A stretch of 38,425 nucleotides of DNA. Origin: a virus. The translations under genes and the position numbers were made by a program. This document shows positions 1 through 22,855 of the stretch, piece after piece; the stretch's first letter is position 1, and every line of letters begins with the position of its first letter. The notes beneath the pieces are model-generated. The model saw only the letters and a list, made by a program, of their open reading frames with translations, was not told where the DNA came from and searched no databases. Location: positions 1 through 38,425 of IMG/VR virus record IMGVR_UViG_3300037189_022878; one strand, 5' to 3'.

Positions 1-339
1 AAAAAACAAATTAACGAAATTAAAAGAATGCAGCTTATCGCTGGATTAATCACTGAAAGTGAATATCAAGAATCATTAATGAATGAAGATAAAAATATTG
101 CTTCATTTTTGAACGCTAATATGGATGAATTTATTCAAAAAATAGGTGATCCTGGTTCTGAATTTGAAATTATGGGTGATCCATTAGTAGCTACAGCAGG
201 TACTGATGATAACTCAGGAATAGATGTTTCTTTTAGTAAAGAACATATGTTAGAACTTTTTCCTGAAAATGATCCATATAATAAAGTAAAATCAGCAAAT
301 ATAGCAGGTAAAGTTATATATTATAATAATTATTTATAA
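1..339 (+). CDS. Partial small protein with capsid-targeting-like leader
   Basis: The reading frame is open from base 1, so the start codon probably lies just outside the window; the first internal ATG is at 28. The visible N-terminus reads KKQINEIKRMQLIAGLITE, nearly the same as the leaders of the genes at 3507 and 17428 (MKKQLNEI-x-RMQQLAGILKE). LITE followed by S matches the gp21-type cleavage rule (I/L-x-E) and resembles the LITE/A site in the major capsid protein of this window. The rest (about 90 residues) is acidic and of no recognised family. A strong terminator follows at 402-442, so the gene ends a transcription unit. Inference: a prohead-targeted internal protein. Function of the mature part is unknown. 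Confidence 0.75.
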   Translation, partial: KKQINEIKRMQLIAGLITESEYQESLMNEDKNIASFLNANMDEFIQKIGDPGSEFEIMGDPLVATAGTDDNSGIDVSFSKEHMLELFPENDPYNKVKSANIAGKVIYYNNYL

Positions 340-387
340 TAATATAAATATATAAAACAGATTCATTGCCTGTTCGCCTCATTAGAG

Positions 388-401
388 GATTTATATAAAT
401 C
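388..401. repeat. 14-nt perfect palindrome before a terminator
   Basis: GATTTATATAAATC is its own reverse complement. It lies directly before the terminator at 402 and after a small CCTC-atta-GAGG hairpin (377-388). Together they form a short structured stretch after the first gene. Its role is unknown; it may only stabilise the 3' end of the transcript. Confidence 0.5.
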
Positions 402-442
402 GGAGTAGTGGCCCTAAAACAGCCACTACTCCATTTTTTTTT
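402..442 (+). terminator. Rho-independent terminator
   Basis: A perfect 11-bp stem (GGAGTAGTGGC at 402-412 with GCCACTACTCC at 422-432) and a 9-nt loop are followed by nine T's. It ends the unit containing the first, partial gene and insulates the endonuclease gene downstream. Confidence 0.92.
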
Positions 443-445
443 GTA

Positions 446-454
446 ATATTTATT
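446..454 (+). promoter_or_regulatory. Candidate phage promoter (ATATTTATT)
   Basis: One copy of the window-wide ATATTTAT(A/T/G) motif, just after a terminator and 12 nt before the ATG at 467. It starts a 17-nt stretch (446-462) that is identical to 13389-13405 in front of the HNH gene; this stretch also contains a T4-late-like TATAAATA at 454-461. Confidence 0.5.
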
Positions 455-466
455 ATAAATAATATT

Positions 467-1012
467 ATGATAGGTATTTATAAAATAACTAACCCTGAAA
501 AAGAAATATATATTGGTCAATCAACTAATATAGAAAAAAGATTTGAAACATATAAAAAGCATTATTGTAAAGAACAAACTAAATTATATGAATCTTTAAA
601 AAAATATGGATGGTTTTATCATTCTTTTGAAATAATAGAAGAATGTAAAGAAGAAGAACTAAATAAAAAAGAACAATACTGGATAAAACAGTATAACTGT
701 GTTTTAAATGGTATGAATTGCATAGGAGGAGGTTATCATAAACCTTATATATATCCTGAAGAAGCTAAACGTATTAAAAGTGAAAAAATGAAAAAACTTT
801 GGATGGAAAATAAATTTAAAAGAAAACTAGGAAAACGAATACAAAATATAAAAACCGGAGAGATATATGAATCTTGTTCTGAAGCAGCTAATAAATTAAA
901 TATAAGTCTTTCTACTATAGCGATATGGTGTAAAAAAGAAAAAAATATAAGATATATTGATAATTGGAATATTAGACCTTCAAAATTTGAAATGGCAAAA
1001 ATAAATTATTAA
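467..1012 (+). CDS. GIY-YIG homing endonuclease, free-standing
   Basis: A 181-residue protein opening with a canonical GIY-YIG core (GIYKI at residues 3-7, IYIG at 14-17, then an Arg in the EKRF segment and a Glu in the KKEQYW segment that fit the catalytic positions). The C-terminal part (about 125-170; KTGEIYESCSEAANKLNIS followed by an IxxWCK motif) resembles a NUMOD1-type DNA-binding module. It would cut a specific site in related phage genomes and spread by repair. The gene has its own promoter-like motif, sits directly after a terminator, and shows no intron core around it, so it is a free-standing mobile gene. The target site is not visible here. Confidence 0.9.
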   Translation: MIGIYKITNPEKEIYIGQSTNIEKRFETYKKHYCKEQTKLYESLKKYGWFYHSFEIIEECKEEELNKKEQYWIKQYNCVLNGMNCIGGGYHKPYIYPEEAKRIKSEKMKKLWMENKFKRKLGKRIQNIKTGEIYESCSEAANKLNISLSTIAIWCKKEKNIRYIDNWNIRPSKFEMAKINY

Positions 1013-1032
1013 TTTTATAAAAATAATAAAAC

Positions 1033-1299
1033 ATGAGTTATCAAAGATCAATTAGAGGATGGTTTAACATGGTTAACAATGCTATCTCTGCAGAAAATCA
1101 AGTTAAAACCCCAACAACACCTCCTCCACCCACAGAACCAGAAACTCCTACAGTTATTGAAAAACTAGATTCAATAATTGAAAATTTAGAAGAAATTACT
1201 GAAATGGTAAAAGCAGATAAAGAAGTAAAAACAGAAGAACCTCAAGAAACAATTAAAGAATATAAAAGAAAAAATAAAGAAAATCAAAATGAAGAATAA
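1033..1299 (+). CDS. Small proline-rich acidic protein, unknown
   Basis: An 88-residue protein with a short N-terminal SYQRSIRGWFNMV segment, a Pro/Thr-rich linker (about residues 28-41) and an acidic helical segment (about 42-70) that ends in a lysine-rich tail. No known family was recognised. It overlaps the start of the FAD oxidoreductase gene by 11 nt, so the two are probably translated from one message and may be coupled. No Shine-Dalgarno is seen before its ATG. It could be a virion or accessory protein; nothing in the sequence decides this. Confidence 0.65.
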   Translation: MSYQRSIRGWFNMVNNAISAENQVKTPTTPPPPTEPETPTVIEKLDSIIENLEEITEMVKADKEVKTEEPQETIKEYKRKNKENQNEE

Positions 1300-1810: not shown

Positions 1811-1834
1811 TTTTTCTTAGATTTTTTCTTAGAT
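1811..1834 (+). repeat. Tandem 12-bp direct repeat at the split-gene junction
   Basis: TTTTTCTTAGAT occurs twice head to tail (1811-1822 and 1823-1834), directly after the stop codon of the oxidoreductase N-half and before the promoter-like motif of the inserted endonuclease gene. It lies at the left edge of the insertion and may be a scar of insertion or repair. Confidence 0.7.
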
Positions 1835-1839
1835 CTATA

Positions 1840-1848
1840 ATATTTATA
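1840..1848 (+). promoter_or_regulatory. Candidate phage promoter (ATATTTATA)
   Basis: A full match to the window-wide motif, 4 nt before the ATG at 1853. It would give the inserted endonuclease gene its own transcription. Confidence 0.5.
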
Positions 1849-1852
1849 ATAG

Positions 1853-2684: not shown

Positions 2685-2685
2685 T

Positions 2686-3459
2686 ATGAAAAAAATAAAA
2701 TTTGATACTTTAATTTATGGTACTGGTAAAGCTGGTATGGATTTAACTCAAAAAATAGTGAGAGAAAAACAATTACCAACTGAAGCTCGCGCTGTGCAGA
2801 TTGGAGTGAGATTTGAAAGCCCACAAAAGTATTTTCAAAAACTAATTGATATATCATATGATTTTAAACTATATCAAAAATTCGATAAGGTATCTCTCCG
2901 TAGCTTTTGTACTAACAACAATGCAGCTTACGTTGCAGTGGAAGAAACTTATGGAGACGTTAGCTACAACGGACACGCCAAAAAAGGTAAAGAATTCGAA
3001 AACCAAATGACTAATTTTGGTATATTAATGGAAATCAAAGGTATTGAAGATCCATTTGCTTGGAGTAGAGATATTGTTCAAAAACTACAAATTAATGGAA
3101 CTGGTACTTATTATTCACCAAACAAAACTCGTCAACCTGGATTAACATCCGAGGGAACAACTGTATCTGCTTATCCTGTAGATAATTTGGTTAGGTTTTA
3201 TGAAGTATTAGGTGAATATGCTACTTATATTCATGATTTTATATTATCAATGAATAAAGTATTTGAATTTGGTGATGATTGGGGTATGTACATTCCTGAA
3301 GTAAAATACTTATCACCGGAACCGTTAGTTAATTATGATGATTTATCATTAACTGAATATCCATATGTACACTTTGTAGGTGATGCACTTTCAGCTCGTG
3401 GTATTACCGTTAGCGGTGCGCATGGTATTTATGTTGCTGAAAGCATTTTGGCAAAATAA
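2686..3459 (+). CDS. FAD-dependent oxidoreductase, C-terminal half (split gene)
   Basis: The 257 residues continue exactly where the N-half (1289-1810) stops. They open with a strand and glycine loop (FDTLIYGTGKAG), then QIGVRFESPQKY, then a SLRSFCTNNNAAYVAVEE segment and a YNGHA motif. This series matches the order in COG2509 flavoproteins. The C-terminus (YVHFVGDALSARGITVSGAHG) is the usual FAD-binding GD motif and helix. Its own ATG directly follows the endonuclease stop codon, so it is probably translated separately or by re-initiation. If both halves fold together the enzyme may still work. The final codons belong to a 36-bp repeat that recurs at 4080-4115. Confidence 0.85.
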   Translation: MKKIKFDTLIYGTGKAGMDLTQKIVREKQLPTEARAVQIGVRFESPQKYFQKLIDISYDFKLYQKFDKVSLRSFCTNNNAAYVAVEETYGDVSYNGHAKKGKEFENQMTNFGILMEIKGIEDPFAWSRDIVQKLQINGTGTYYSPNKTRQPGLTSEGTTVSAYPVDNLVRFYEVLGEYATYIHDFILSMNKVFEFGDDWGMYIPEVKYLSPEPLVNYDDLSLTEYPYVHFVGDALSARGITVSGAHGIYVAESILAK

Positions 3460-3506: not shown

Positions 3507-3989
3507 ATGAAAAAGCAACTTAACGAAATTCATAGAATGCAGCAGTTAGCTGGTATTTTAAAAGAATCACAATTAGATGAAGTTTCTATTAATGATAAAG
3601 GAGAAATTGAAGATTTTAATTTTGAAGATGATTTAGTAGTTAAATATACTCCTAATTATTATCAAAATGAAAAAGATTATAAATTCTTTTATTGTGAAAA
3701 AGGACTAGCAGATGATTTTATATTAATAAATGGAAAAAAAGTAAAAGAAATTATAGGGTATTCCAATTTTATTGATCTTCCAGATGATAAAAAATGGATT
3801 TTAAGTATGCCTGACCCTAAATTAGAATTAGAAAAAAATATTCCAGGTTTAATTCTTGATCCAGAAGGATGCAGTGATGCTGAATTTGAAGTAATAGGAT
3901 ATGTATATTCTAAAAGTGGAAAAGATATTGAAATAGAATATGAAGAAGAGGAATTATGGGATGCTTTTTATGATTCATTAGGAGCTTAA
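3507..3989 (+). CDS. Leader-bearing accessory protein in a repeat-bounded cassette
   Basis: A 160-residue acidic protein. The first 20 residues (MKKQLNEIHRMQQLAGILKE) differ at a single position from the leader of the gene at 17428 and resemble that of the partial gene at base 1. The remainder is unrelated to either and matches no family I know; it is rich in Asp, Glu and Tyr. LKE before S at residue 20 fits the I/L-x-E rule for T4 prohead protease cleavage. The gene has its own upstream motif and its own terminator (4043-4078), and is bounded by 36-bp direct repeats. It therefore looks like a moron-type cassette that delivers a packaged protein. Function of the mature part is unknown. Confidence 0.8.
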   Translation: MKKQLNEIHRMQQLAGILKESQLDEVSINDKGEIEDFNFEDDLVVKYTPNYYQNEKDYKFFYCEKGLADDFILINGKKVKEIIGYSNFIDLPDDKKWILSMPDPKLELEKNIPGLILDPEGCSDAEFEVIGYVYSKSGKDIEIEYEEEELWDAFYDSLGA

Positions 3990-4739: not shown

Positions 4740-5477
4740 ATGCCTGCTAAATTAATACAAGAACAATTTATAAATAAAGCTAAAGATAAACATAATAATT
4801 ATTATGATTATTCTTTAGTAAAATATATTAATGCTACCACTAAAGTTCAAATAATATGCCCTAAACACGGTGTATTTGAACAACAACCAAATAACCACCT
4901 ATTTGGTCAGCGTTGTATAAAGTGTATGGGTGATAGTGTTAGAAAAGCTAGAATTAGCAATACAGAAGATTTTATAGAAAAATCTAAAAAAATACATGGA
5001 AACAAATATGATTATTCTTTAGTAAAATATAAAACAGGAAAAGATAAAGTTATTATTATTTGTCCTTTTCATGGTGAGTTTTTACAAACACCATTTGCTC
5101 ATAGCAGTCCTTCAATGAAACAAGGATGTCCTTATTGTAATGTGTCTAAGGGTGAAGATGAAATTGAAAAATATCTTATTAAGAACAATATTGAATATAA
5201 AAATCAATATACATTTGTAGATTGTATTAATCCAAAAACCTCTAAAAAGTTACCATTTGATTTTTATCTACCCAAACATAACATATTAATAGAATATCAA
5301 GGAGAACAACATTATAAAAAAACAGGATATTTTGAAAAAAAATGTGGGGGGTTAGAAGGATTACAATATAGAGATAATATTAAAAAAGAGTATTGTCAAA
5401 AAAACAGTATTAAATTTATAGAAATATCTTATAAAGATTTTAACAATATTAAAAAAATTTTAAAAGAAATATTATGA
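4740..5477 (+). CDS. Vsr/PD-(D/E)XK-like endonuclease with DUF723-type zinc repeats
   Basis: A 245-residue protein. Two copies of a repeat (about residues 8-63 and 77-135) read F-x-x-KA/KSKK-x-x-H-G/N-N-K/Y-YDYSLVKY, then a V-x-I-I-CP-x-HG-x-F core and a C-x-x-C pair. This is the DUF723 pattern seen in phage endonucleases. The C-terminal domain has PFDFYLPKHNILIEYQGEQHY (about 176-196). That Asp...Glu-x-Gln core is typical of Vsr-like PD-(D/E)XK nucleases. It is probably a mobile, site-specific endonuclease. It has its own promoter-like motif inside an inverted repeat, and its stop overlaps the ATG of the next gene by 4 nt. The target is unknown. Confidence 0.75.
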   Translation: MPAKLIQEQFINKAKDKHNNYYDYSLVKYINATTKVQIICPKHGVFEQQPNNHLFGQRCIKCMGDSVRKARISNTEDFIEKSKKIHGNKYDYSLVKYKTGKDKVIIICPFHGEFLQTPFAHSSPSMKQGCPYCNVSKGEDEIEKYLIKNNIEYKNQYTFVDCINPKTSKKLPFDFYLPKHNILIEYQGEQHYKKTGYFEKKCGGLEGLQYRDNIKKEYCQKNSIKFIEISYKDFNNIKKILKEIL

Positions 5478-5998: not shown

Positions 5999-7168
5999 AT
6001 GAATGTACTAAATGATGTAAGCAAAGTTGCAAAACAACTTATGCTAAAGGAACCGTTTTATGGAGTTTTTCTTTCAACATTAAATAAAAGAATAGGTACA
6101 GATACTCCAACTGCTGGTGTTTGTTTAAATAATATTAATTATGAGTTAATTATTAATGAAGAATTTTGGAATTCATTAGATAATGACAATAAAAAAATAG
6201 GATTACTTAAGCATGAATTACTTCATATATGTTTTAATCACTTAATTGATCGAGAAAATTATTTTGATCATATTCTACATAATATAGCAGCTGATATTGA
6301 AATAAATCAATATATAGATCCACAATATTATCCATCAGACCAACTTCTTCTTCCATCATCTTTCCCAGAACTAACATTACCGGCAAAAGCAGGTACAAAA
6401 TATTATTATGATGCTTTACTTAAAGCTAAACAAAATAATACTAGTCCTACACTAAATAGTATGTTAGATAATGATTTTCATTTAACTTGGGGAGAATTTG
6501 AATCATTATCTGAAACTGACAAAAAATTAATTAAAGCTCAAATCGATCATCAAATAAAAAGTATAATAGAATCTCAAGCAGATAAAGGTAGAGGTTTTGT
6601 ACCAAACGAATTAAAAGATTATATTGATAGTTTATTTGCAATTACTCCTCCATCATATGATTGGAAATCATATTTTAGAAGATTCTTTAGTTCATCATCC
6701 AAAATATACACTAAAAAAACACGCCGCAAACTAAATAAACGTTTTATAGAAAACCCAGCATTAAAAATTAAACCTAAAAAGAATATATTAGTTGGAATTG
6801 ATACTTCAGGTTCTGTTGGAAAAGAAGATACAATAGAATTTTTTAATGAATTACACCATATGCATAAAACAGGAATATCAATTACTATAGCTGAAGGTGA
6901 CGCTAAAGTGCATAAAGTATATGAATACAAAGGTAAACCACCTGAAACTATTACTGGTAGAGGTGGTACTGAAATGAATGTTTTTATAGATTATTTTAAT
7001 AAAAATCCTCAATATAATAGTTTAATTATTTTCACTGATGGTTATATAGGTGAACGAATATTAAGTTCTTTTAAACCTATATTAACTGTTTTAACTTCAA
7101 ATGGTGAAAAATTAGAAACAGTTATAGAAAATAAATGGGGAAATGTTATAAAAATGAATAAAAGATAA
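5999..7168 (+). CDS. VWA-domain protein with metallopeptidase-like N-terminus (DUF2201 type)
   Basis: A 389-residue protein. The N-terminal domain has HELLH at residues 72-76 and a third His at 81 (HELLHICFNH), then an HNIAADIEIN segment, which is the layout of DUF2201-type putative metallopeptidases. The C-terminal domain is a von Willebrand A fold with a complete MIDAS: DTSGS at 268-272, Thr324 in GRGGTEM, and Asp347 in FTDGY. Proteins of this build are coded next to MoxR AAA+ ATPases, and such an ATPase follows 48 bp downstream. By family analogy, the ATPase uses the VWA protein as an adaptor to remodel or load metal into a target. Whether the HExxH site is active is not known. Confidence 0.85.
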   Translation: MNVLNDVSKVAKQLMLKEPFYGVFLSTLNKRIGTDTPTAGVCLNNINYELIINEEFWNSLDNDNKKIGLLKHELLHICFNHLIDRENYFDHILHNIAADIEINQYIDPQYYPSDQLLLPSSFPELTLPAKAGTKYYYDALLKAKQNNTSPTLNSMLDNDFHLTWGEFESLSETDKKLIKAQIDHQIKSIIESQADKGRGFVPNELKDYIDSLFAITPPSYDWKSYFRRFFSSSSKIYTKKTRRKLNKRFIENPALKIKPKKNILVGIDTSGSVGKEDTIEFFNELHHMHKTGISITIAEGDAKVHKVYEYKGKPPETITGRGGTEMNVFIDYFNKNPQYNSLIIFTDGYIGERILSSFKPILTVLTSNGEKLETVIENKWGNVIKMNKR

Positions 7169-7216: not shown

Positions 7217-8401
7217 ATGTCAAGTAAAACTAAACAGGTTTCGCTTAATGTTAATGAAGCAAAAACATTTCTTAAACACATCATTAACAACAATCGCTTT
7301 CTTCAATCTAATAACAAACCACCAGTAGCGGTTGAAGTAGTAGGAGATTCAGGTATCGGTAAAACATCAACTATTATTCAATTAGCAAACGAATTAGATC
7401 TTAATTTTGTTAAATTAAATCTTGCTCAAATTGAAGAACTAGGTGATTTAGTTGGTTTTCCAATTCGCCAATTTGAAGTATGTAAAGATACAAATAATTG
7501 TACTTGGATTGATGAACATGCTGTAGATGAATATACAAAACAAGGATATAAATTTACAGGTCAAAATAGAATGAGTTATTGCCCACCTGAATGGATTAGT
7601 GGTAAAACAAATGGCGGTATATTATTATTGGATGACTGGAATCGCGCTGATGTTAGATTTATTCAAGCTGTAATGGAGCTAATAGATAGACAGCAGTATA
7701 TTAGTTGGTCTTTACCTAAAGATTGGCATATTATTCTCACAAGTAATCCTGATAATGGTGAATATCTAGTTAATAGTATAGATAACGCTCAAAAAACACG
7801 ATTTATATCTATTAATCTTAAATTTGATATCAATTGTTGGGGTGAATGGGCTGAAAATAATCAAATAGATAATAGATGTATTAATTTTCTTCTTAGGCAT
7901 TCTGAATTAGTTAATACAAATACTAACTCTAGAAGTATTACAACGTTTTTTAATTCAATATCTTCATTATCTTCATTTGATGCTGAACTAGGTCTTATCC
8001 AAATGATTGGAGAAGGTAGTGTTGGTCCTGAATTTACCACTATGTTTACAATGTTTATTAATAATAAACTTGATAAAATTATATCTCCAGAAACTATTAT
8101 GACGCATGAAAGCTTTGATTATGTGCTTAATACTTTAAAAGGAATTATAGGGAAAGATAAAGATTATCGTGCAGATTTAGCATCTATTATTTCAACTCGT
8201 ATTATTAACTTTAGCTTGTTTTTCGCTAAAAATAATAAAGTTGAAAAAAGTTTTATAGATAGATTAGCATCACTTATAAACGAAGAATTATTTGCGGTTG
8301 ATTTGAAATATAATATTGTTAAATCGATTTATAACGGTAATCAATCTTCATTCAAAAGTTTGACTTTGAATAAAACACTTCTTAATTTTATAATCAAATA
8401 A
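7217..8401 (+). CDS. MoxR-type AAA+ ATPase
   Basis: A 394-residue protein with Walker A at 43-50 (GDSGIGKT), Walker B ILLLDD at 135-140 in the sequence GGILLLDDWNRA, and a sensor-1 Asn in ILTSNPD (about 174-180). The pattern, including the D-W-N-R-A continuation and the PPEW segment just before, is that of MoxR/YifB-like phage ATPases. It lies directly after its presumed VWA partner (5999) and 9 nt before an unknown gene that may be the third member. No Shine-Dalgarno is visible; the spacer is A-rich. The likely role is ATP-driven remodelling of a phage or host protein complex. Confidence 0.85.
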   Translation: MSSKTKQVSLNVNEAKTFLKHIINNNRFLQSNNKPPVAVEVVGDSGIGKTSTIIQLANELDLNFVKLNLAQIEELGDLVGFPIRQFEVCKDTNNCTWIDEHAVDEYTKQGYKFTGQNRMSYCPPEWISGKTNGGILLLDDWNRADVRFIQAVMELIDRQQYISWSLPKDWHIILTSNPDNGEYLVNSIDNAQKTRFISINLKFDINCWGEWAENNQIDNRCINFLLRHSELVNTNTNSRSITTFFNSISSLSSFDAELGLIQMIGEGSVGPEFTTMFTMFINNKLDKIISPETIMTHESFDYVLNTLKGIIGKDKDYRADLASIISTRIINFSLFFAKNNKVEKSFIDRLASLINEELFAVDLKYNIVKSIYNGNQSSFKSLTLNKTLLNFIIK

Positions 8402-9882: not shown

Positions 9883-10118
9883 AAAAGATTTTCACGTTAA
9901 TAGAAATGTATAAGGGTGATGCTTATCATTTTGATGATTTTGATGATAATATTATTGCTGAAACTCTAGATAAATTGAAAGAATTATTATCAAACTTAAA
10001 AGAAAATGATAATGAAAGTTATGCTCGTACTATAAAAGAATATAAAAATTCACTTGAAGGTGAGCGCAAAGATGTTATAGAAGATTTTATTGAATATTCT
10101 AAATACCATAATAAATGA
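9879..10118 (+). CDS. Small acidic helical protein, unknown
   Basis: A 79-residue protein with an N-terminal strand-helix (MKKIFTLIEMYKGDAYHFDD) and two acidic helices. It overlaps both neighbours by ATGA, so it belongs to an operon from 9415 to 11737. No family was recognised. Confidence 0.6.
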   Translation: MKKIFTLIEMYKGDAYHFDDFDDNIIAETLDKLKELLSNLKENDNESYARTIKEYKNSLEGERKDVIEDFIEYSKYHNK

Positions 10119-11065
10119 AAAAATCAGAATTACAAGAACTCATACGTGAAGTTATTGATGAAGTAATGAATGAAGCTACTCAATCAACTACTATCGATTT
10201 TAAAGATAAAAATAGAGGAGATAAAATTCTAGATATTGACCCCTCAGATGCTCCTACAATTAATAAATTGAAAATAGATCCTAATGTAGCTAGTGTTACA
10301 ATGGGAACTAAAAAACTAAAAGAAATGGCTCGTCAACCTATTATCTATAAAGTAAGTGACGACTATGCTGATAAACTTTCTGAATTACCTTATGTTGGCT
10401 CATCTAAACGAATGGTGTGGGTTAATGGTATCATAGATTATATAAAAGATAATGGTCCTGCCGATATTACTAAAATAGCTAGAGAAAAATTTAATGTTCC
10501 TCAACCACGCATATCTGACTATGCTCGTGATATGATTAGACTTGGTATTCTAGCACCAACAACCGCTGGTGTTGTCCCTCAATTTATGAAACCTAAAGCA
10601 GAACCTGGTGAAGAAGTAGAACCAGAAGAAGAAACAGGTATTGTTTCTGGTGATTTAAGTGATGAAGAAATTGAAGCATCATTTGCTCAAGCTAAAGCAG
10701 CAGGCGACGAAGAAGAATCTACTCCTGAATTAGGAAAAGTACCTACCCCTTCATCCGCTTCTGGACTATCAGATGAAGATTATAACACTTTTATGAAATA
10801 TACTGATCTTGCAGATCGTTTAAATAAAGTAAAAAGTGATCTAAATAGAATGAAGCGTGCTAAATTTATGGCTGGTACTGGTGATATTAAAGACAAATCA
10901 TCTACAGAGGAAAAACGTTTAATGGATTTAAAAGCAAGTTTGGAACAACGTGTAAATAATTTAGTAGCTAGTTCTGAATATTTACAGAAGCGTCAATCTA
11001 AAAAGGATGAATTAGACGAATGGAATAAAAATAAAATGCAATACTACGCAGGCATTATAAAATAA
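10115..11065 (+). CDS. Leader-bearing protein with winged-helix-like domain
   Basis: A 316-residue protein. The first 20 residues (MKKSELQELIREVIDEVMNE) form an amphipathic helix almost the same as the start of the gene at 18140 (MKKSELRELIKEVILQE), and the next residue is Ala, as in the capsid site LITE/A. Residues about 100-155 (VNGIIDYIKDNGPADITKI, then RISDYARDMIRLGILAP) read like a winged helix-turn-helix that could bind DNA. A long acidic, Pro-rich linker (about 165-225) is followed by a coiled-coil-like end. Inference: a prohead-packaged DNA-binding protein. It could instead be a scaffold-associated structural protein. Confidence 0.7.
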   Translation: MKKSELQELIREVIDEVMNEATQSTTIDFKDKNRGDKILDIDPSDAPTINKLKIDPNVASVTMGTKKLKEMARQPIIYKVSDDYADKLSELPYVGSSKRMVWVNGIIDYIKDNGPADITKIAREKFNVPQPRISDYARDMIRLGILAPTTAGVVPQFMKPKAEPGEEVEPEEETGIVSGDLSDEEIEASFAQAKAAGDEEESTPELGKVPTPSSASGLSDEDYNTFMKYTDLADRLNKVKSDLNRMKRAKFMAGTGDIKDKSSTEEKRLMDLKASLEQRVNNLVASSEYLQKRQSKKDELDEWNKNKMQYYAGIIK

Positions 11066-13410: not shown

Positions 13411-14088
13411 ATGAAAATTTGTATTAAATGTAACCAAGAAAAAGAATTAAATAATTTTTATAAAAATAATAGAAATAAATCAGGATATGAAGGTATTTGT
13501 AAATCTTGTAAAAATGAATATACTATTTTAAATAATAAAAAATTAGGAAATAAATACTTTCAATTAACTTCTAAAAAATGGTCAAATAAAAATAAAAATA
13601 AAATATCACAATATAATAAAGAAAAATATAATAATAATAAAGAATACTGGTTAAGTGAAAATAGAAAATTATATAGTAAAGAATGGAGAAGTAATAATAA
13701 AGATAAATTAGTAAAATATTGGAAAATTAAATATGATACTGATATTAATTTTAAACTATCTTGTTTGTTAAGACTTAGGTTATATAATGCTTTAAAACTA
13801 AATTTAAAAACTAAAAGTGCTATAAAATTAATAGGTTGTACAATAGATACTTTTAAACAATATCTTGAATCTAAATTTAAACCAGAAATGAATTGGAATA
13901 ATCATGGTGATATTTGGGAAATTGATCATATCAAGCCATGTGATTCCTTTAATCTAACAGATATAGAACAACAAAAACAATGCTTTCATTATACTAATAC
14001 GCAGCCATTATTTAAAACAACAAAAATTGCTGAGTCGTTTGGATATAATGAATTAGGCAATAGAAATAAGACTAATAAATATTTATAG
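13411..14088 (+). CDS. HNH homing endonuclease, free-standing
   Basis: A 225-residue protein. An N-terminal zinc ribbon (CIKCNQEKELNNFYKN ... CKSCK) is followed by a Lys/Asn/Tyr-rich region of DNA-binding type. The HNH core follows at about 170-205 (WEIDHIKPCDSFNL, QQKQCFHYTNTQPLF), with the DH pair and the Asn of the HNH fold. It lies between the terminase and the portal gene, with no intron features, and has its own promoter-like element shared with the GIY-YIG gene at 467. The last codons overlap another promoter-like motif (14079-14087) that serves the portal. It is a mobile gene; its target is presumably a site near the terminase/portal junction in related phages. Confidence 0.88.
   Translation: MKICIKCNQEKELNNFYKNNRNKSGYEGICKSCKNEYTILNNKKLGNKYFQLTSKKWSNKNKNKISQYNKEKYNNNKEYWLSENRKLYSKEWRSNNKDKLVKYWKIKYDTDINFKLSCLLRLRLYNALKLNLKTKSAIKLIGCTIDTFKQYLESKFKPEMNWNNHGDIWEIDHIKPCDSFNLTDIEQQKQCFHYTNTQPLFKTTKIAESFGYNELGNRNKTNKYL
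14079..14087 (+). promoter_or_regulatory. Candidate phage promoter (ATATTTATA)
   Basis: Lies inside the last codons of the HNH gene, 19 nt before the ATG of the portal gene. Confidence 0.45.
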
Positions 14089-16028: not shown

Positions 16029-16886
16029 ATGTCAAAAATTAAACACAGTAAATTTCGCAATACTGGTATATTATTTGAATTATTAGTGCGCCAGATAGCA
16101 TCTGATACTTTATCTAATAAAGATTCTGCAGCTGTTAATTTAGTTAAAAAATATTTTAACAAAACAGAATTAACTAAAGAATATAAAATATACCAGACTT
16201 TAATCAATTCAAAACTTTTAAGTGAAGCTAAAGCTGAGACATTCATAAATACAGCATTAGATGCTTCTTTGCGTTTAAATAAAACAATTTTACGTAAAGA
16301 AAAATATAATTTAATTAAAGAAATTAAAGAAAACTACGACTTAGAAGAATTCTTTAAAGCAAAAATTAATCACTATACGCAATACGCTGCTTTATTTAAC
16401 TTAATTGAATCTCATAGCTCAACAGAATTTATTGACCCTAAACTTATTATTGATAATAAAATTACTTTATTAGAGCATATTACACGTAAAGAAGTTAATA
16501 AAGAAGACGTTAAAGATCGTGTAATAGAAGAATATATAAAACTAGATAAAGGTTCTCGTATACTTGCTTATCGTATGTTGTTAGAAAAATTTAACACAAA
16601 ATACGCTGAGTTAAATGATAAGCAAAAAAATGTATTGAAAGAATATATTAATAATGTAACTAATACAGTTAAATTAAGAGAATTTGTTAATAATAATTTT
16701 AATGTTATTGTTAGTGAATTAAAATCAATTATTCCAACAATAGAAGATAAAACAACTCAAATTAAATTAACAGAAATAACTAATTTTCTTCAACCATTAG
16801 ATAAAAATCAAAATATAAAAGATGAAAATATAATTTCACTTTTACAGTTTTATCAGCTATTAAATGAGTTAAAAACCATTAAATAA
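16029..16886 (+). CDS. Conserved head-module protein, unknown
   Basis: A 285-residue, all-helical, lysine-rich protein. It starts MSKIKHSKFRNTGILFELLVR and holds an EKYNLIKEIKENYDLEEFF segment near residue 100. It sits between portal and protease, as unnamed genes do in many marine T4-like phages. Its position suggests a role in prohead assembly or as an internal protein. No domain was recognised. Its stop TAA shares its last A with the ATG of the next gene. Confidence 0.7.
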   Translation: MSKIKHSKFRNTGILFELLVRQIASDTLSNKDSAAVNLVKKYFNKTELTKEYKIYQTLINSKLLSEAKAETFINTALDASLRLNKTILRKEKYNLIKEIKENYDLEEFFKAKINHYTQYAALFNLIESHSSTEFIDPKLIIDNKITLLEHITRKEVNKEDVKDRVIEEYIKLDKGSRILAYRMLLEKFNTKYAELNDKQKNVLKEYINNVTNTVKLREFVNNNFNVIVSELKSIIPTIEDKTTQIKLTEITNFLQPLDKNQNIKDENIISLLQFYQLLNELKTIK

Positions 16887-17431
16887 TGGATCAATTAAGA
16901 GAAAAATTAAAGCAATTAATACGTAAAGAACTAGAAGAAATGTCTGGTACTAGTGGAGGAGAAGCATATTCTACTCCTTTTGCTTTTGCTAAAAAAGGAC
17001 AAAAAACAAACGCCGCTACCCAAACAGCTAAATCTCAAGGAATGAAATTAGCTCCTACAGGAATACCTAGTGACTCTAAAGTAAGAGATTATAAAGCAAT
17101 TTGGAAATCAGCTGAAAAACCTAAATATAAAATGTATAAAGAATCTTTACATCAAATTATAAAACAAGAATTACTCAACGAAGTAACCTATTCTAAATTC
17201 AAAAACGAAGTTAAATTTAGAACTAAATCAGAACAACTTCATAAAGCGATTCGTGAAGTAAAACGCAAACTGCAAGAAATTGATCGTATTGTTGAATATA
17301 CATCACGCATGAAACAAGAATTAAGTGAAGATGGTGGCATTAATTATTGGAAAGCCACTCAAAAAAATATAGGTACTATATCTGAAATGGTTAATCAATT
17401 AAACAATAAAATTAAAAATTTACATCAATGA
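16886..17431 (+). CDS. Head-module protein with amphipathic leader
   Basis: A 181-residue protein. The first 20 residues (MDQLREKLKQLIRKELEEMS) form an amphipathic helix like the other leaders in this window. A GGEAYSTPFAFAKKGQ segment follows at about 24-39. A second leader-like helix in the middle (ESLHQIIKQELLNE before V, about 85-98) ends in L-x-E. The rest is a basic coiled coil. Two I/L-x-E-like sites suggest processing by the prohead protease. It begins on the last base of the previous gene and overlaps the next by 4 nt. Function is unknown. Confidence 0.7.
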   Translation: MDQLREKLKQLIRKELEEMSGTSGGEAYSTPFAFAKKGQKTNAATQTAKSQGMKLAPTGIPSDSKVRDYKAIWKSAEKPKYKMYKESLHQIIKQELLNEVTYSKFKNEVKFRTKSEQLHKAIREVKRKLQEIDRIVEYTSRMKQELSEDGGINYWKATQKNIGTISEMVNQLNNKIKNLHQ

Positions 17432-17961
17432 AAAAACAACTTAATGAAATTTATAGAATGCAGCAATTAGCTGGTATTTTGAAGGAGAATAATATGAATG
17501 AAAATGAAAGTATATATAATAGTATTGTAGATCAAGTAAAAAAATTATATTTAAAAGAAATCGGGCAAGAAATAAGTACTAGTCAAGAAGATGATATAAT
17601 GAAAATAATAGAGGCTACATACAGGTTTTCTTTTAGAAAAGATAATAATGTGAAACTTAGTAATGGAACAACTACTAGAATCAGCAGTTATATGAAAGAT
17701 AGCTTAGATAAAGGTAATTACGGTAAATTAGCTCAAGCTATATTTGAAATACTCGTTGATAAACCAATTAACGAAGCTGATACTTCTATGGATATTGAAA
17801 GAGAAGAATATATAAATAAAGAAATTAATACAACCATAAAAGCTATTGAAAATTTACAAGAATTAGGATTAGGATCTGTTGATTATATTTTAAATATGAT
17901 TAAAAAAGAAATGAAAATAAAATCAACTTCTATTCCGGCTTCTGAATTACCTTTTTCGTGA
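17428..17961 (+). CDS. Leader-bearing head-module protein
   Basis: A 177-residue protein starting MKKQLNEIYRMQQLAGILKE, which differs from the leader at 3507 by one residue. The body (about 25-177) is acidic and helical and is unrelated to the body at 3507. PINE before Ala (about 112-116) is a second possible I/L-x-E cleavage site. The near-identity of leaders on different bodies points to a modular targeting signal. It overlaps the previous gene by 4 nt. Inference: an internal (packaged) protein. Function is unknown. Confidence 0.7.
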   Translation: MKKQLNEIYRMQQLAGILKENNMNENESIYNSIVDQVKKLYLKEIGQEISTSQEDDIMKIIEATYRFSFRKDNNVKLSNGTTTRISSYMKDSLDKGNYGKLAQAIFEILVDKPINEADTSMDIEREEYINKEINTTIKAIENLQELGLGSVDYILNMIKKEMKIKSTSIPASELPFS

Positions 17962-17976
17962 TAAAAATATAAATAG

Positions 17977-18105
17977 ATGGCTAAAAATTTACGCGGTGGT
18001 GAAAGTCGCAAAATAACATTCGGTAAACGCAAATTAAAAAAAGCAAAAAAATCCTACAATAGACACGATAGAACAGAAAAAAACTACCGTAGACAAGGAA
18101 GATAA
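17977..18105 (+). CDS. 42-residue very basic protein
   Basis: An open frame that reads MAKNLRGGESRKITFGKRKL and then a run rich in Lys, Arg and Tyr; about 17 of 42 residues are Lys or Arg. It starts 15 nt after the previous stop and ends inside a promoter-like motif. Tiny basic proteins of this kind occur next to head genes in marine T4-like phages. It could bind packaged DNA. The family name is unknown to me. Confidence 0.65.
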   Translation: MAKNLRGGESRKITFGKRKLKKAKKSYNRHDRTEKNYRRQGR

Positions 18106-18113
18106 TATTTATA
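18105..18113 (+). promoter_or_regulatory. Candidate phage promoter (ATATTTATA)
   Basis: Begins on the last base of the stop codon of the small basic gene, 26 nt before the ATG at 18140. Confidence 0.5.
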
Positions 18114-18139
18114 CATAACAAATTATAAATTATAAAACA

Positions 18140-18415
18140 ATGAAAAAAAGTGAATTGCGTGAATTAATAAAAGAAGTAATACTTCAAGAAATAACAATTA
18201 AAAAAAGAACTCCTGAGCAAATCAAAGCTGAGGAAGATTTATTGCAACAAATAGCAGATTTTGAAAAAAAGTATCCTGATTTTAAATATGCTAGTAAAGA
18301 AGCTGTAAAAAATGATATTAGAAAGAATGGAGCTTTAAGAGCAGGTATTGATTTTGATAAAGCTAGAGCAGCATATGCCAAAGATAAAAAAGATAAAAAA
18401 GAAAAAGGCAGCTAA
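18140..18415 (+). CDS. Small leader-bearing basic protein
   Basis: A 91-residue protein starting MKKSELRELIKEVILQE, nearly identical to the leader of 10115, with LQE at 15-17 as an I/L-x-E-like site. The remainder is a lysine-rich helical protein (KYPDFKYASKEAVKNDIRKN) with a KDKKDKKEK tail that would suit DNA binding. It lies among head genes, 14 nt before the next start. Inference: packaged into the prohead and trimmed. Confidence 0.7.
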   Translation: MKKSELRELIKEVILQEITIKKRTPEQIKAEEDLLQQIADFEKKYPDFKYASKEAVKNDIRKNGALRAGIDFDKARAAYAKDKKDKKEKGS

Positions 18416-18428
18416 AAATAACATAATA

Positions 18429-19322
18429 ATGAAAAGTATACAAAATCAATATCGCGACCTTAAAGAAGGAAAAATGTCACAAGCTAACTTTATGCGTAAT
18501 GTGCGTATGACTTTTCCCCATTTAGTTACTAATGTAACATCGTTTGATGATACTGTTAGAATACTCAAAAATAAACAAATATTAAGCGAAGCTAAAACTA
18601 AACTACACCCAAATCAAATTCACCCACAAGAATTAAGAATGGGTATCAGAGTAGAAATGGAACACACAGATGATCCTAAAAAAGCAGAAAAAATTGCTTT
18701 AGATCATCTAGCAGAAAATCCATTTTACTATACAGCATTAAAACTATCAGGTGTTGAATCACCTTCAGCTCCTAAAGCTAAAGCACCTGCTAAAGCTAAA
18801 GTTAAAAAAGAATCAGTTGAATTAGTTGATAAAGAAAATCAAATGAAAACACCAAAAGGTGTTGAAAAAGCAAAAGCATCAGCTAATAAAGCATATAAAG
18901 AAACAAATAAAGGCGTTAAAGGAGTAGAAGAACTTACCCACGCCGCTAAAAAAGCTAAAGGCATTAAACAAGTAATGTCTCCTACTGGTGGTAAAATGAA
19001 AACTATTAGAGAACAATTAGAAAAACTTGTGCGTGAAATGTTAGCTGAAACGTTTGATGGTCGTGATAATTTAGATGAAGATAGAGAATTTGATCCATAT
19101 GATTCTGATTCAATGGCTAATTTTATAGCTCAAACATATGGAAAAGAATTAAAACAATTAACAGGAAAAGAAAAGGAAAACCAAGCTTTTCGATATGCCT
19201 ACACGCATATGATTAAATCAGGAATACCAAATGCTAAAATTGTAGCTAGAAATTTAATGAATGATGACGATTGGGCCGCAGATTATATAACTTCTCTATT
19301 TAACATGATAGGTAGAGGATAA
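18429..19322 (+). CDS. Head-module protein with internal leader-like helices
   Basis: I place the start at 18429 because an upstream ATG at 18348 would overlap the previous gene by 68 nt and add only a lysine-rich tail. The protein then begins MKSIQNQYRDLKEGKMSQAN, followed by FMRNVRMTFPHLVTNV and ILSE before A (an I/L-x-E site). A basic Ala/Lys-rich linker follows, and a second segment, MKTIREQLEKLVREMLAE before T, starts an acidic C-terminal part. Length is about 297 residues. The same FMRNVRMTFPHLV pattern occurs in many marine T4-like head modules. It may be processed at two sites; its function is unknown. Confidence 0.7.
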   Translation: MKSIQNQYRDLKEGKMSQANFMRNVRMTFPHLVTNVTSFDDTVRILKNKQILSEAKTKLHPNQIHPQELRMGIRVEMEHTDDPKKAEKIALDHLAENPFYYTALKLSGVESPSAPKAKAPAKAKVKKESVELVDKENQMKTPKGVEKAKASANKAYKETNKGVKGVEELTHAAKKAKGIKQVMSPTGGKMKTIREQLEKLVREMLAETFDGRDNLDEDREFDPYDSDSMANFIAQTYGKELKQLTGKEKENQAFRYAYTHMIKSGIPNAKIVARNLMNDDDWAADYITSLFNMIGRG

Positions 19323-19353: not shown

Positions 19354-19959
19354 ATGAAATCATTACTTATAGACCATACTCCTTTCCAACACGCTAAACT
19401 TACTTTAGTTGAAGGTAAAGCAAATAATGGTACTGTCACTTTAGTTGGTAAATTACAAGAAGCTGAGCAAAAAAATGGCAATGGTCGTGTATATCCTCGC
19501 GAAATACTTGAAAGAGAAGTAAAAAAATACGCTGAAGGACCAATAAAAACACGCACTGCTTTAGGAGAACTCGATCATCCTGAAGCCTCTGTTGTAAACT
19601 TAGCCAATACTTCTCATCTTATTACAGAAGTATGGTGGAAAGGAAATGACTTAATGGGTAAATTACAATTATTACCTACACCTGCTGGCAATATTGCTAA
19701 AGCACTTGTACTATCAGGTATTCCACTTGGAATTTCATCACGTGGTATGGGTAGTGTTAAACAACTTGGTGAAACAGTTGAAGTACAAGATGATTTTGAA
19801 TTATTATGTTGGGATTTAGTATCAGTACCTAGTACTCCGCAGGCTTATATGAAATTAGCTGAATCAAAGCAATATGCTTCTATTAAAGATTATAGTAAAG
19901 TAAATAGTTTAATAACAGAAATTATTTGTCAACATACTGGAGTTTGTCCTTTATGTTAA
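19354..19959 (+). CDS. gp21: Prohead core protease (T4 gp21-like)
   Basis: A 201-residue serine protease of the herpesvirus-protease-like fold. Residues 70-77 (LGELDHPE) carry His75, and 126-131 (GISSRG) carry the Ser nucleophile (Ser128 or Ser129), which is the standard gp21 arrangement. In T4 this enzyme removes scaffold and internal-protein leaders after (I/L)-x-E. It sits between the leader-bearing genes and the scaffold gene, exactly where its substrates are coded. The C-terminus (CQHTGVCPLC) has Cys pairs not expected from T4. Confidence 0.92.
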   Translation: MKSLLIDHTPFQHAKLTLVEGKANNGTVTLVGKLQEAEQKNGNGRVYPREILEREVKKYAEGPIKTRTALGELDHPEASVVNLANTSHLITEVWWKGNDLMGKLQLLPTPAGNIAKALVLSGIPLGISSRGMGSVKQLGETVEVQDDFELLCWDLVSVPSTPQAYMKLAESKQYASIKDYSKVNSLITEIICQHTGVCPLC

Positions 19960-19986
19960 AGTATTTGCGGTTTTTCATATCTACAT

Positions 19987-19995
19987 ATATTTATG
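19987..19995 (+). promoter_or_regulatory. Candidate phage promoter (ATATTTATG)
   Basis: The motif precedes and slightly overlaps the hairpin 19993-20019. It lies 111 nt before the scaffold ATG, the longest leader in this window. Confidence 0.45.
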
Positions 19996-20019: not shown

Positions 20020-20054
20020 TCTTATGCAGCCTCGGGTATATTACAAACCCCTAT

Positions 20055-20075
20055 TAAGATTTTCTAATAATCTTA
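20055..20075 (+). promoter_or_regulatory. Second hairpin in the same leader
   Basis: TAAGATT (20055-20061) pairs with AATCTTA (20069-20075) across a 7-nt loop, just before the A-rich stretch and the Shine-Dalgarno of the scaffold gene. Confidence 0.5.
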
Positions 20076-20091
20076 TTTCCGAAAAAAATTT

Positions 20092-20097
20092 AAGGAG
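20092..20097 (+). promoter_or_regulatory. Shine-Dalgarno of the scaffold gene
   Basis: AAGGAG lies 9 nt before the ATG at 20107. It is one of the few clear ribosome binding sites in the window; most genes have only A-rich leaders. It fits the high demand for scaffold protein. Confidence 0.7.
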
Positions 20098-20106
20098 AAA
20101 AATTTT

Positions 20107-21183
20107 ATGACAAACCAAGATTTGTTCAAAGAAGCAATTGCTGACGCTAAAGCTATTCGTGAAACTGCTTTAGCCAACGCAAAAGTCGCTCTTGAAGAAG
20201 CTCTTGCCCCTAGACTTCAATCTATGCTTGCTGCTAAATTGCAAGAAATGGAAGGTGAAGATTTAGAAGAAGCAAAAGACAAGGACGACGAAAAAATGAA
20301 AGAAGGCTTCTATCCTTCTGAAACTAGTGATAAAATTCAAGACAGATATCGTGCAACTGGTGCTGCTCTTGAAGAAGGTGGTGATGAGTTAGAAGAAGAC
20401 TTCGATTTATCTGAAATTTTAGCTGAACTTGAAGAAGCTAAAAAAGAAGAAGAAAAAGAAAAAATGGAAGAAGCTAAAGAAGAAGAAGAAGAAGGTAAAG
20501 AAGAAGAATCTGAATCTACCGAATCTGAAACTGTAGCTGATCTTTCAGTAGAAGAATTAAAAATGATTATCAAAGACATTATTTCTAGCGAAATGGAAGA
20601 CGGCGGCATGGAAGACATGGGCGGCGGTGAAATGGAAGCTGGTGATGAAATGTCTGTTGATGTATCTGATGAAGGAGAAGAAATGGAAGAAGATCTTGAT
20701 TTAGAAGAATTATTAGCTGAACTTGACGCTTTAGGCGAAGACTATTCTGAAGAAACAGAATACGAAGAAGGCGGAATGTACGAAGCTAAGAAAAAAATGA
20801 AAAAAGCTAAAGAAGAAGATGATAAAATGAAAAAAGAGTTAGATGAAGCTATTGCTACTATCCACACTCTTCGCTCAGAACTTAACGAAGTTAATCTTCT
20901 TAACGCTAAATTACTCTATGTAAATAAGATTTTCAAAGCCAAAAACTTAACCGAATCACAAAAACTTAAAGTAATTGCTCAATTCGACAAAGCAGCTACT
21001 ATTAAAGAAGCTAAGATGATTTATGAAACTATGGACGTTGCTATTGTAAAATCCGCTAAGTCTTCAATTAAAGAATCTATGGGCTTTGCTTCTAAAGCAG
21101 CAGGTATTGCTAAAAAACCAATCGTCGAAGTAGACGAAACAATGTCAAGATGGCAAATGCTTGCTGGTATTAAAAAACACTAA
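20107..21183 (+). CDS. gp22: Prohead core scaffold protein (T4 gp22-like)
   Basis: A 358-residue protein, extremely acidic in its middle (about residues 50-235, Glu/Asp runs). The conserved C-terminal module (about 255-315) contains LRSELNEVNLLNAKLLYVNK and FKAKNLTESQKLKVIAQFD, typical of phage scaffold proteins of this group. The tail ends MSRWQMLAGIKKH (346-358). Its MLAGI resembles the MQQLAGI in the leaders of 3507 and 17428. The scaffold assembles the prohead and is digested by the gp21-like protease coded just upstream. A clear Shine-Dalgarno and a structured leader precede it. Confidence 0.88.
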   Translation: MTNQDLFKEAIADAKAIRETALANAKVALEEALAPRLQSMLAAKLQEMEGEDLEEAKDKDDEKMKEGFYPSETSDKIQDRYRATGAALEEGGDELEEDFDLSEILAELEEAKKEEEKEKMEEAKEEEEEGKEEESESTESETVADLSVEELKMIIKDIISSEMEDGGMEDMGGGEMEAGDEMSVDVSDEGEEMEEDLDLEELLAELDALGEDYSEETEYEEGGMYEAKKKMKKAKEEDDKMKKELDEAIATIHTLRSELNEVNLLNAKLLYVNKIFKAKNLTESQKLKVIAQFDKAATIKEAKMIYETMDVAIVKSAKSSIKESMGFASKAAGIAKKPIVEVDETMSRWQMLAGIKKH

Positions 21184-21214
21184 AAAATTAATTAACAAAA
21201 AAACCCTTTAAAAA

Positions 21215-22855
21215 ATGAACGTACAACAATTACTCGAGTCATCTAACCAATATAAAGTTATAATGGAAGATGCACAACGTTTGTCTGGTAAGTGGGCTAA
21301 ATCCGGTCTTTTAGAAGGTATCGGTAACACTCAAGACAAAAACACAATGGCTATTCTCCTCGAGAACCAAGCCAAGCAATTAATCACCGAAGCTTCAGCT
21401 ACTGGCGGTACTACCTCAATGTCTGGTGGTGGTTACAACTCAGAAAACTGGGCTGGTGTAGCTTTACCATTAGTTCGCCGCGTATTCGGTGAAATCGCTG
21501 CTAAAGAATTCGTTAGCGTACAGCCAATGAACTTACCTTCAGGTCTCGTATTCTATCTTGATTTCAAATACGGCACTGGTGTTAAGCCATTCACTAACGG
21601 TGGTTCACTTTATGGTGCTAACGCAACCACAAATGTAACCGATATTGCTTCTCAGTCACTCTATGGTGCTGGTAAGTTTGGTTACTCAATCAACCAGTTC
21701 TCAGCTTCTGTTGCTGCTTTAACCGGTTCAACCACATGGGCTGACTTTAACTTGGATTCTAACTATTCAGCTTCTGCTGCTACTGGTTGGAAAAAAGTAT
21801 TAGTTCCCCTTCCAACTCCTGCTGATCAGAATGCTGTTAGATCATTTGTATTTACTTCTGGTTCTATTACTGCTACTGATATTTTACAGCAATTTACTAC
21901 TGTATCTAACAACACAGCTTCCTTCATTGTGACTGGTTCTGTTGTTCCTGCTGTGACCGGTGGTGCTATGCCTAGTACTACATTATTCTTCTCTGTAGCT
22001 CCAGATCCTGCTGATCGCGGTGATTTTGAAGACCAATCAGTTGGTGGTGGTGCGGGTACTGCTAATGGTAATGGTGGTTATCCCAATGCTTTAAGCAATA
22101 CTACAATTTCTATCCCAGAGATTAACGTTCAGTTGAAATCTGAAGCTATTGTTGCTAAAACTCGTAAGTTAAAAGCACAATGGACTCCAGAATTCGCTCA
22201 GGATCTTAACGCTTACCATAGCGTAGATGCTGAAGCTGAATTAACTGGCATTTTATCACAGTACATTTCAATGGAAATCGACCTCGAAATCCTTGATATG
22301 TTAATTCAAAACGCTTTCACAACTGAATATTGGTCAGCAGTTAACAACCAAGCTGTAGGTACATCTGGTGTTACTAATAGCAACTTAGGTTTCTACAATA
22401 CCCAAGGTGGTTGGTTCCAAACCCTCGGTACTAAACTCCAGAAAGTTTCTAACACAATCCATCAGTTAACTCTCCGCGGTGGCGCTAACTTCCTCGTAAC
22501 TTCACCAACCGTAGCTACAATCCTCGAATCTATTCCTGGATTTGCTTCTGACGGTGATGGCGAAAAGATGGAATTCAACTTCGGTATTCAGAAAGTTGGT
22601 TCACTTAATAGCCGTTACAAGGTTTACAAGAACCCATACATGACTGAGAATGTAATCCTCATGGGTTACAAAGGTGCTCAGTTCCTTGAGTGCGGTGCTG
22701 TATTCGCTCCATATGTGCCTTTAATCATGACTCCACTTCTTTACGATCCTAATACCTTCACTCCACGTAAAGGTTTGATGACTCGTTACGCTAAGAAGAT
22801 GATTAGACCTGATTATTATGGTAAGGTGTATGTTGCTGGTTTAAATACTCTTTAA
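21215..22855 (+). CDS. gp23: Major capsid protein (T4 gp23-like)
   Basis: A 546-residue capsid protein (T4 gp23 is 521). It contains NWAGVALPLVRRVFGEIAAKE, then a YLDFKYGTG segment and, near the C-terminus, FLECGAVFAPYVPLIMTPLLYDP. These are hallmarks of the gp23 family. The residues around 55-60 read QLITEA; cleavage after E59 would mirror T4 gp23, cut after E65. The codon usage is unlike its neighbours: many C-ending codons (TTC, ATC, AAC, CTC), as expected for the most expressed gene. A terminator follows at 22894. It probably shares a transcript with the scaffold gene. Confidence 0.95.
   Translation: MNVQQLLESSNQYKVIMEDAQRLSGKWAKSGLLEGIGNTQDKNTMAILLENQAKQLITEASATGGTTSMSGGGYNSENWAGVALPLVRRVFGEIAAKEFVSVQPMNLPSGLVFYLDFKYGTGVKPFTNGGSLYGANATTNVTDIASQSLYGAGKFGYSINQFSASVAALTGSTTWADFNLDSNYSASAATGWKKVLVPLPTPADQNAVRSFVFTSGSITATDILQQFTTVSNNTASFIVTGSVVPAVTGGAMPSTTLFFSVAPDPADRGDFEDQSVGGGAGTANGNGGYPNALSNTTISIPEINVQLKSEAIVAKTRKLKAQWTPEFAQDLNAYHSVDAEAELTGILSQYISMEIDLEILDMLIQNAFTTEYWSAVNNQAVGTSGVTNSNLGFYNTQGGWFQTLGTKLQKVSNTIHQLTLRGGANFLVTSPTVATILESIPGFASDGDGEKMEFNFGIQKVGSLNSRYKVYKNPYMTENVILMGYKGAQFLECGAVFAPYVPLIMTPLLYDPNTFTPRKGLMTRYAKKMIRPDYYGKVYVAGLNTL

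Follow-up and report, generated by a model that had tools for sequence, protein, structure and literature searches.

Shared terminal tags on unrelated genes of a T4-like environmental phage: candidate prohead-targeting leaders and their likeness to the scaffold tail

The virus record IMGVR_UViG_3300037189_022878 of IMG/VR (38,425 bases, all of which were analysed and are referred to here as the window) carries a T4-like head gene cluster together with unrelated genes whose products begin with the same short leaders. Type A leaders follow the pattern MKKQ[IL]NEIxRMQxLAG[IL][IL]xE over about 20 residues and type B leaders the pattern MKKSELxELIxEV; both stand at the front of unrelated genes, in the window as well as among its relatives, where a third class, D (MIKLxD[LI]LxE), is the dominant leader. 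The leaders are very probably tags that target proteins to the prohead core and are removed by the encoded gp21-like protease, in a variant of the capsid targeting sequence (CTS) of phage T4. Common tags, their terminal placement and that of the protease-type sites, their swapping between genes and their co-occurrence with gp21- and gp23-like genes are directly observed. On balance, it also appears that dozens of unrelated genes have received, at their front, a copy of the docking tail of the scaffold protein, as a copy-and-paste cassette that makes head cargo of their products. Such a cassette would bring protease sites and sometimes a promoter region with it, and would be parallel to, and exchangeable for, the T4-CTS-type tag.

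All the leaders that an earlier note on this DNA had described, of types A and B and as similar helices, are present where it had placed them. The scaffold C-terminal core, the tail of the 10115 protein and the CTS-like N-termini at 25815 and 26167 are additional to it. The genes concerned in the window are the following.

1..339, + strand: type A leader gene; leader at 1-57, the ATG lying just outside the window and supplied by G023, a 97-kb contig that continues the window virus
3507..3989, + strand: type A leader gene; leader at 3507-3566, then a 140-residue body unrelated to the other carriers of the window
10115..11065, + strand: type B leader gene; leader at 10115-10174, C-terminal tail KMQYYAGIIK at 11033-11062
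16886..17431, + strand: gene lying between those of portal and protease, with two B-like helices in its product, at 16886-16939 and 17132-17182 (..LLNE/V)
17428..17961, + strand: type A leader gene; leader at 17428-17487
18140..18415, + strand: type B leader gene; leader at 18140-18190
18429..19322, + strand: gene for a protein matching DUF5661; internal B-like helix MKTIREQLEKLVREMLAE at 18996-19049
25815..26156, + strand: gene with the CTS-like N-terminus MGILEKILLNE (25815-25847)
26167..26517, + strand: gene with the CTS-like N-terminus MKLLNIIKE (26167-26193)

The leaders are shared without the genes being homologous. Between 3507 and 17428, 53 of 60 leader bases are alike, compared with 33 of 90 in the DNA after the leader. 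A neighbouring gene of G023 outside the window has the same first 30 codons as gene 1 (window 1-87), identical in every base (90/90 leader bases), after which agreement falls to 33/90 and 29/90; the upstream DNA of these two genes is also alike by eye, slightly shifted. Since the leader bases agree and the following DNA does not, neither chance nor gene homology explains the sharing. A tblastn search with protein 3507 found 12 loci, nine of which match the N-terminus only, over query residues 1-21 at the shortest and 1-43 at the longest; these include window gene 17428 itself, in a longer contig. The type A core stands at the N-terminus of six genes of G023, half of them in the window and the other three consecutive beyond its edge.

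The earlier note had proposed scanning related genomes, and the same leaders were indeed found there on unrelated genes. ORFs (open reading frames) were called by a simple longest-frame method, and the leader patterns were regular expressions written after the data were seen. Pattern collection gave 347 leader proteins (228 D, 86 A and 33 B, class counts that are not frequencies because many of the proteins were fetched for their leaders), and their bodies form 192 clusters, 75 of which include type A leaders. With strict patterns, 59 carriers were counted among 2140 ORFs of nine genomes and the partial G023 (20 A, 28 D and 11 B), about six per genome. More than one leader class occurs in six body clusters. 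The L008 protein, with a type A leader, and immuto26A_176, with a type B leader, have bodies that are 66% identical over 176 positions (E 2e-82) and begin at residues 21 and 16, respectively; in another case, proteins with A and D leaders are 72% identical over 103 residues. The leaders are thus modular, identical leaders standing on unrelated bodies and homologous bodies bearing leaders of differing classes.

This modularity bears on the proposal that the leaders are conserved N-termini, kept for translation or stability or by common gene ancestry, and not targeting signals. The upstream DNA that some type A genes also have in common is consistent with that proposal; the same likeness implies that the copied unit includes a promoter-start cassette. 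Opposed to the proposal stand the unrelated bodies (347 proteins in 192 clusters), the interchange of leaders on homologous bodies, synonymous codon variation in class D and the presence of the same core at the scaffold C-terminus, which together make it highly improbable.

The placement of the type A core was followed with a DNA pattern scan of IMG/VR for RMQxLAG, any position being allowed. At least 126 matches were obtained; among those listed, 71 have a stop no more than 16 residues away, 49 are close to a start and 6 lie elsewhere. As a control, the same pattern was run against a collection of bacterial and archaeal genomes and gave at least 120 stretches; among the matches listed, 59 fall in frames shorter than 60 residues, 38 are internal, 4 C-terminal and 19 N-terminal, many of the last in short frames. 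The control hits that resemble phage contigs within metagenome bins are two C-terminal and one N-terminal. Under a uniform 60-residue rule, the viral matches listed divide into 66 C-terminal, 48 N-terminal, 5 internal and 7 short-frame ones, and among the matches listed terminal placement differs between viral and bacterial sets with p=1e-17. Judged by this placement, the RMQxLAG core is a terminal signal. Four contigs (L094, L143, L181 and L193) were fetched for an N-terminal type A match alone, and all four carry an immuto-like capsid gene.

At the C-terminus, the core is the tail of the scaffold-position gene in the head cluster, where the order from protease (19354) through scaffold (20107) to capsid (21215) is that of the T4 gp22-type arrangement.

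14107: portal-like gene, assigned from its position and an annotated immuto gene
19354..19959, + strand: gp21-like prohead protease (Peptidase_S77, PF03420, 2.8e-33)
20107..21183, + strand: scaffold-position gene, whose C-terminal tail is the type A core after a protease-type site
21215..22855, + strand: gp23-like major capsid protein gene (7.6e-79), with the site QLITE/A at 21377-21394

The GELDHP and GISSRG blocks of the protease align with T4 gp21 and are presumably the sites of the catalytic His and Ser. Judged by the capsid protein, the window phage comes closest to the isolates Flavobacterium phage immuto (58%), Microcystis phage Mel-JY01 (49%) and Rhodothermus phage RM378 (38.5%). Going by RM378, the window phage probably belongs to an immuto/RM378-like group in the area called 'Far-T4' (PMC4360716); the terms scaffold, prohead, protease and capsid targeting did not turn up in the searchable text of that paper. 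In some relatives the major capsid genes form a tandem pair (G002 60985-64430, G006 97902-101301 and L014).

The scaffold tail of the window reads PIVE-VDETMS-RWQMLAGI-KKH (21118-21180, core 21148-21171). The gene upstream of the capsid gene was collected at 76 loci, namely 74 of the 79 capsid relatives listed, the window and immuto; there are at least 79 such relatives, some on near-identical contigs, and the five left out have a capsid gene starting at or near the contig edge. Among the matches listed, all 75 scaffolds end in R[MWLF][QKR]x[LI]A[GN][ILM]: 58 have R[MWL][QKR]x[LI]AG[ILM], 14 have LANI for LAGI, and 3 have RFQKLAGI. At the remaining locus a second capsid gene stands upstream, and the scaffold of that contig does carry the tail. 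The Mel-JY01 scaffold ends in ERMKKLAGIVK, and the gene upstream of the RM378 capsid gene ends in ERIKRLAGL; a tblastn search with the last third of the window scaffold did not find RM378. T4 gp22, which ends in YAKVASRF, lacks this tail. Tails related to it are borne by a second family of ten proteins including that of 10115, seven of the YYAGI type and three of the LANI type, and by a few other proteins.

Protease-type sites accompany the core at both ends of proteins. T4 gp21 cleaves after L/I-x-E (PMC9026906), and [ILMV]xE occurs within 8 residues after LAG in 48 of 50 distinct N-terminal type A leaders (background 143/1376), 42 of them having exactly LAGx[ILMV]xE. For the tails, [ILMV]xE lies within 14 residues ahead of the core in 57 of 68 distinct cases (background 288/1376), with E at -7 of the core in 46; it is also found ahead of the core in 33 of the 50 leaders. 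The usual place of a site is thus the stretch that joins tag to body, with the body on either side. The statement of the earlier note that most leaders end in or contain (I/L)-x-E holds; the N-terminal helix of 16886 has no clean site except LEE. The capsid site that it named, QLITE/A, does occupy residues 55-60.

These offsets also bear on whether the tags mark proteins for another assembly, such as the tail, the baseplate or a membrane head-initiation site, with [IL]xE sites that are incidental. Some D-type carriers do lie among the structural genes that follow the capsid gene (25815 and 26167 in the window, and their relatives). This proposal is nevertheless unlikely in view of the sites at fixed offset (42/50 leaders, 46/68 tails), of type A being the tail of the gene adjoining the capsid gene in 75/75 scaffolds listed and also in Mel-JY01 and RM378, and of the fit of class D to the four mapped positions of the T4 CTS (PMC9026906).

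Class D emerged from a search for N-terminal patterns in immuto and eight large contigs, which together have 2030 ORFs in 957 body families. Gapped four-residue patterns are common to up to 30 families at N-termini, compared with 8 at internal positions and 11 after shuffling, and the top ones are part of MIKLxD[LI]LxE. When the end is left unforced, 27 of 36 MIKL starts (25 families) carry an [ILM]xE whose E is residue 10, compared with 2.0% of 1994 other genes; within the 36, D6 is found in 21, L/I7 in 33, L8 in 30 and E10 in 27. In the T4 CTS, residues 4 and 7 serve targeting and residues 8 and 10 processing (PMC9026906). T4 ipII and ipIII start with MKTYQEFIAE, and class D keeps this length and spacing, with 10 residues, hydrophobic positions 4, 7 and 8, and E10; type B fits the spacing only after a two-residue shift, and type A differs. 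Where the earlier note had likened every leader to those of T4 IPI-III, type A most resembles the phage's own scaffold tail.

A scan of IMG/VR for MIKLxDxLxE gave at least 146 matches, 145 of the 146 listed having the preceding stop no more than 60 residues away. The codons of class D vary synonymously, which points to the peptide itself. The window genes 25815 and 26167 have looser forms of the leader, and some relatives have the MIKL form: relatives of 25815 (51-52% identical) start with MIKLTDLLLE or MKLSNLILE, and those of 26167 (32-50% identical) with MKLIDILKE, MIKLTDLIQE or MIKLSDLLKE. Mel-JY01 has 6 CTS-like N-termini compared with 0.9 expected by shuffling. Twelve D-leader contigs longer than 50 kb were chosen by eye, and an immuto-like capsid protein was found in 7 of them and the protease in 1 more. 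Separately, a 388-residue protein of Mel-JY01 encoded between the protease and scaffold genes (L516 12430-13596) starts with MYEYVEYILE, which fits the CTS spacing.

The bodies behind the leaders were compared with Pfam for 20 carriers of relatives selected by eye; one, whose coordinates were wrong, is left out, and of the others five have clear matches, six weak ones and eight none. The clear matches, each in one carrier, are ART-PolyVal (2.1e-10, from residue 21), NUDIX (4.3e-14, from residue 16), zeta/AAA_33 (9e-9, from residue 13), RNase_T (7e-11, best stretch from residue 109) and DUF5824 (2e-18, from residue 97); in three carriers the domain starts directly behind the leader, at residues 13-21. 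A second carrier has an ART-PolyVal match below the cut-off. For one weak-match carrier, a low-confidence model (pLDDT 55) placed Tpt1/KptA and DarT folds first, with a best E of 0.0096 and none below 0.001. The idea, put forward in the earlier note, that the packaged proteins might be injected effectors fits the predicted cargo of the relatives. The window carriers 1, 3507, 10115, 18140 and 25815 match no Pfam family; 16886, 17428 and 26167 have only below-cut-off matches, and 18429 matches DUF5661. Among the leader genes tested with PHROGs, just two weak matches of unknown function were found, both on 3507.

A reading in which the cargo would be mostly ADP-ribosyltransferases (ARTs) was dropped because a regular expression for ART starts is not enriched (1 of 192 leader clusters, 6 of 2030 genes). 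The 388-residue protein of Mel-JY01 was likewise rejected as an ART, being ART-like by eye only, with no Pfam match and no useful PDB match. Small kinase-like proteins with D-type leaders (by eye; GQGxExxxYP..KVIK) occur in L469, L444 and L434 404 and as immuto26A_178; the three tested against Pfam were not clearly named.

The carriers could instead be, for the most part, extra scaffold or core components like T4 gp67 and gp68, cut up and lost and not delivered. The window genes 16886-18429 sit between portal and protease, in the place of T4 core genes 67 and 68; B-like helices, with possible cut sites, occur inside the proteins of 16886 and 18429, and a scaffold-like tail is also found on the 10115 family. 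Enzyme domains in several carriers of relatives (ART-PolyVal, Nudix, zeta/AAA_33 and RNase_T in Pfam) and the many carriers encoded far from the head cluster speak against this for most carriers, so that it is a minority possibility that we regard as doubtful. Because of their location, some of the window genes 16886-18429 may nonetheless be core components.

The route from tag to delivery can be sketched on the prohead-targeting reading. A protein made late would carry a short amphipathic N-terminal tag that docks in the growing head, type A most likely at the site of the scaffold's C-terminal tail and types B and D at a T4-CTS-type site. The two sites may be one and the same, since the leaders can replace each other. 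Tag and body would be separated by the gp21-like serine protease, cutting after [IL]-x-E; this would release the cargo within the head and detach the scaffold from its tail, and in the next infection the cargo would exit together with the DNA. Docking partner, packaging, cleavage and ejection are thus what we infer from sequence. Prohead loading and trimming by the gp21-like protease, as the earlier note had suggested, is the reading best supported by the CTS-like class, the site offsets, the scaffold tail and the swaps.

Late expression is addressed by the word TATTTAT, which occurs within 50 bases upstream of 61 of 146 late genes and 1 of 95 early genes in nine genomes. It is probably a late-promoter word, and it is not found before some late families (capsid 0/11, protease 0/9).

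Several points weigh against prohead targeting. TATTTAT precedes 11 of 42 leader genes and 227 of 1786 unlabelled genes, a set that for this word also contains leader genes (p=0.018 against unlabelled, p=8e-6 against early genes), and this slight excess is weak evidence: the comparison with unlabelled genes is biased, since the upstreams of leader genes were where the word was chosen, so that only the late-versus-early contrast is independent. Four of the 12 D-leader contigs longer than 50 kb have no capsid or protease match and are perhaps fragments. RM378 has the tail yet no CTS-like leaders (0 found, 0.77 expected). Between the scaffold and T4 gp22 there is one LTESQK block in a weak match (hhalign E 0.0056, probability 6.5). 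Strict mimicry, in which leaders would copy the LAGI or LANI of their own scaffold, did not find support: N is present in only 2 of 14 leaders in LANI-scaffold contigs; one of these two lacks an ATG start, and none was found in LAGI-scaffold contigs, numbers too few to decide. The literature searched contained no virion proteomics or N-terminal data.

In the literature searched, papers on phage capsid targeting sequences deal with T4, P1, SPN3US, P22 and T4-based tools (PMC10052503, PMC9026906, PMC9024508, PMC3012670). The T4 CTS of IPI-III and Alt is likewise a short N-terminal leader on unrelated proteins, with [IL]xE sites and an S77 protease gene, and T4 Alt is an ADP-ribosyltransferase (PMC9026906), a domain that one cargo here has as well. 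The peptide differs from that of T4, there are at least three leader classes, some of them interchanging, and about six carriers per genome, and type A matches a scaffold C-terminal tail that T4 gp22 lacks. In SPN3US-type giant phages, too, several head proteins are trimmed by the prohead protease and proteins are ejected, but the propeptides are mostly long (111-254 residues, with two of 20 and 24), and the text of that source, as far as available, describes no common short leader or scaffold-tail copy (PMC10052503). The N-terminal 30 residues of P1 DarB suffice to package a reporter; according to its authors, the Dar N-termini have no consensus and there is no separate scaffold (PMC9024508), whereas the tags here are plainly shared. 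The literature searched held no report of a scaffold-tail tag, nor of leaders in immuto/RM378-like phages, so that the kind of signal is already known from T4 and this variant appears to be new.

Terminal peptides also load HK97-fold shells in encapsulins, through cargo-loading peptides, and in P22, where cargo is fused to the shell-binding end of the scaffold; these tags are uncut and mostly C-terminal or engineered. The candidate tag described here is in contrast natural, mostly N-terminal on its cargo and flanked by protease-type sites. To our knowledge, just a handful of internal proteins are known in T4, and the binding partner of the CTS in the prohead core is unresolved; our comparison points to the scaffold-tail docking site as a candidate answer for one tag class. 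A simple rule follows for predicting head-packaged, probably delivered proteins among the genes of this aquatic phage group, including ADP-ribosyltransferase-, kinase- and nuclease-like enzymes. If the cassette reading is true, the set of virion-delivered effectors could be read from any such phage genome by a scan. The comparison further suggests another set of tags with which proteins could be loaded into phage heads in the laboratory.

Other features of the window were recorded by eye. Apparent halves of a flavin adenine dinucleotide (FAD)-dependent oxidoreductase lie around a GIY-YIG-like endonuclease ORF (1289-1810, 1884-2684 and 2686-3459); Rfam has no match in the window, including no intron at this split gene. 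More homing-endonuclease-like ORFs are seen at 467-1012, 4740-5477 and 13411-14088, one of them between the terminase and portal genes. A VWA/metallopeptidase-like gene adjoins a gene for a MoxR-like AAA ATPase (5999-7168 and 7217-8401). Two giant genes built from ASYVLNAVSASFA-type repeats, at 28026-33395 and 33985-38424, probably encode fibres.

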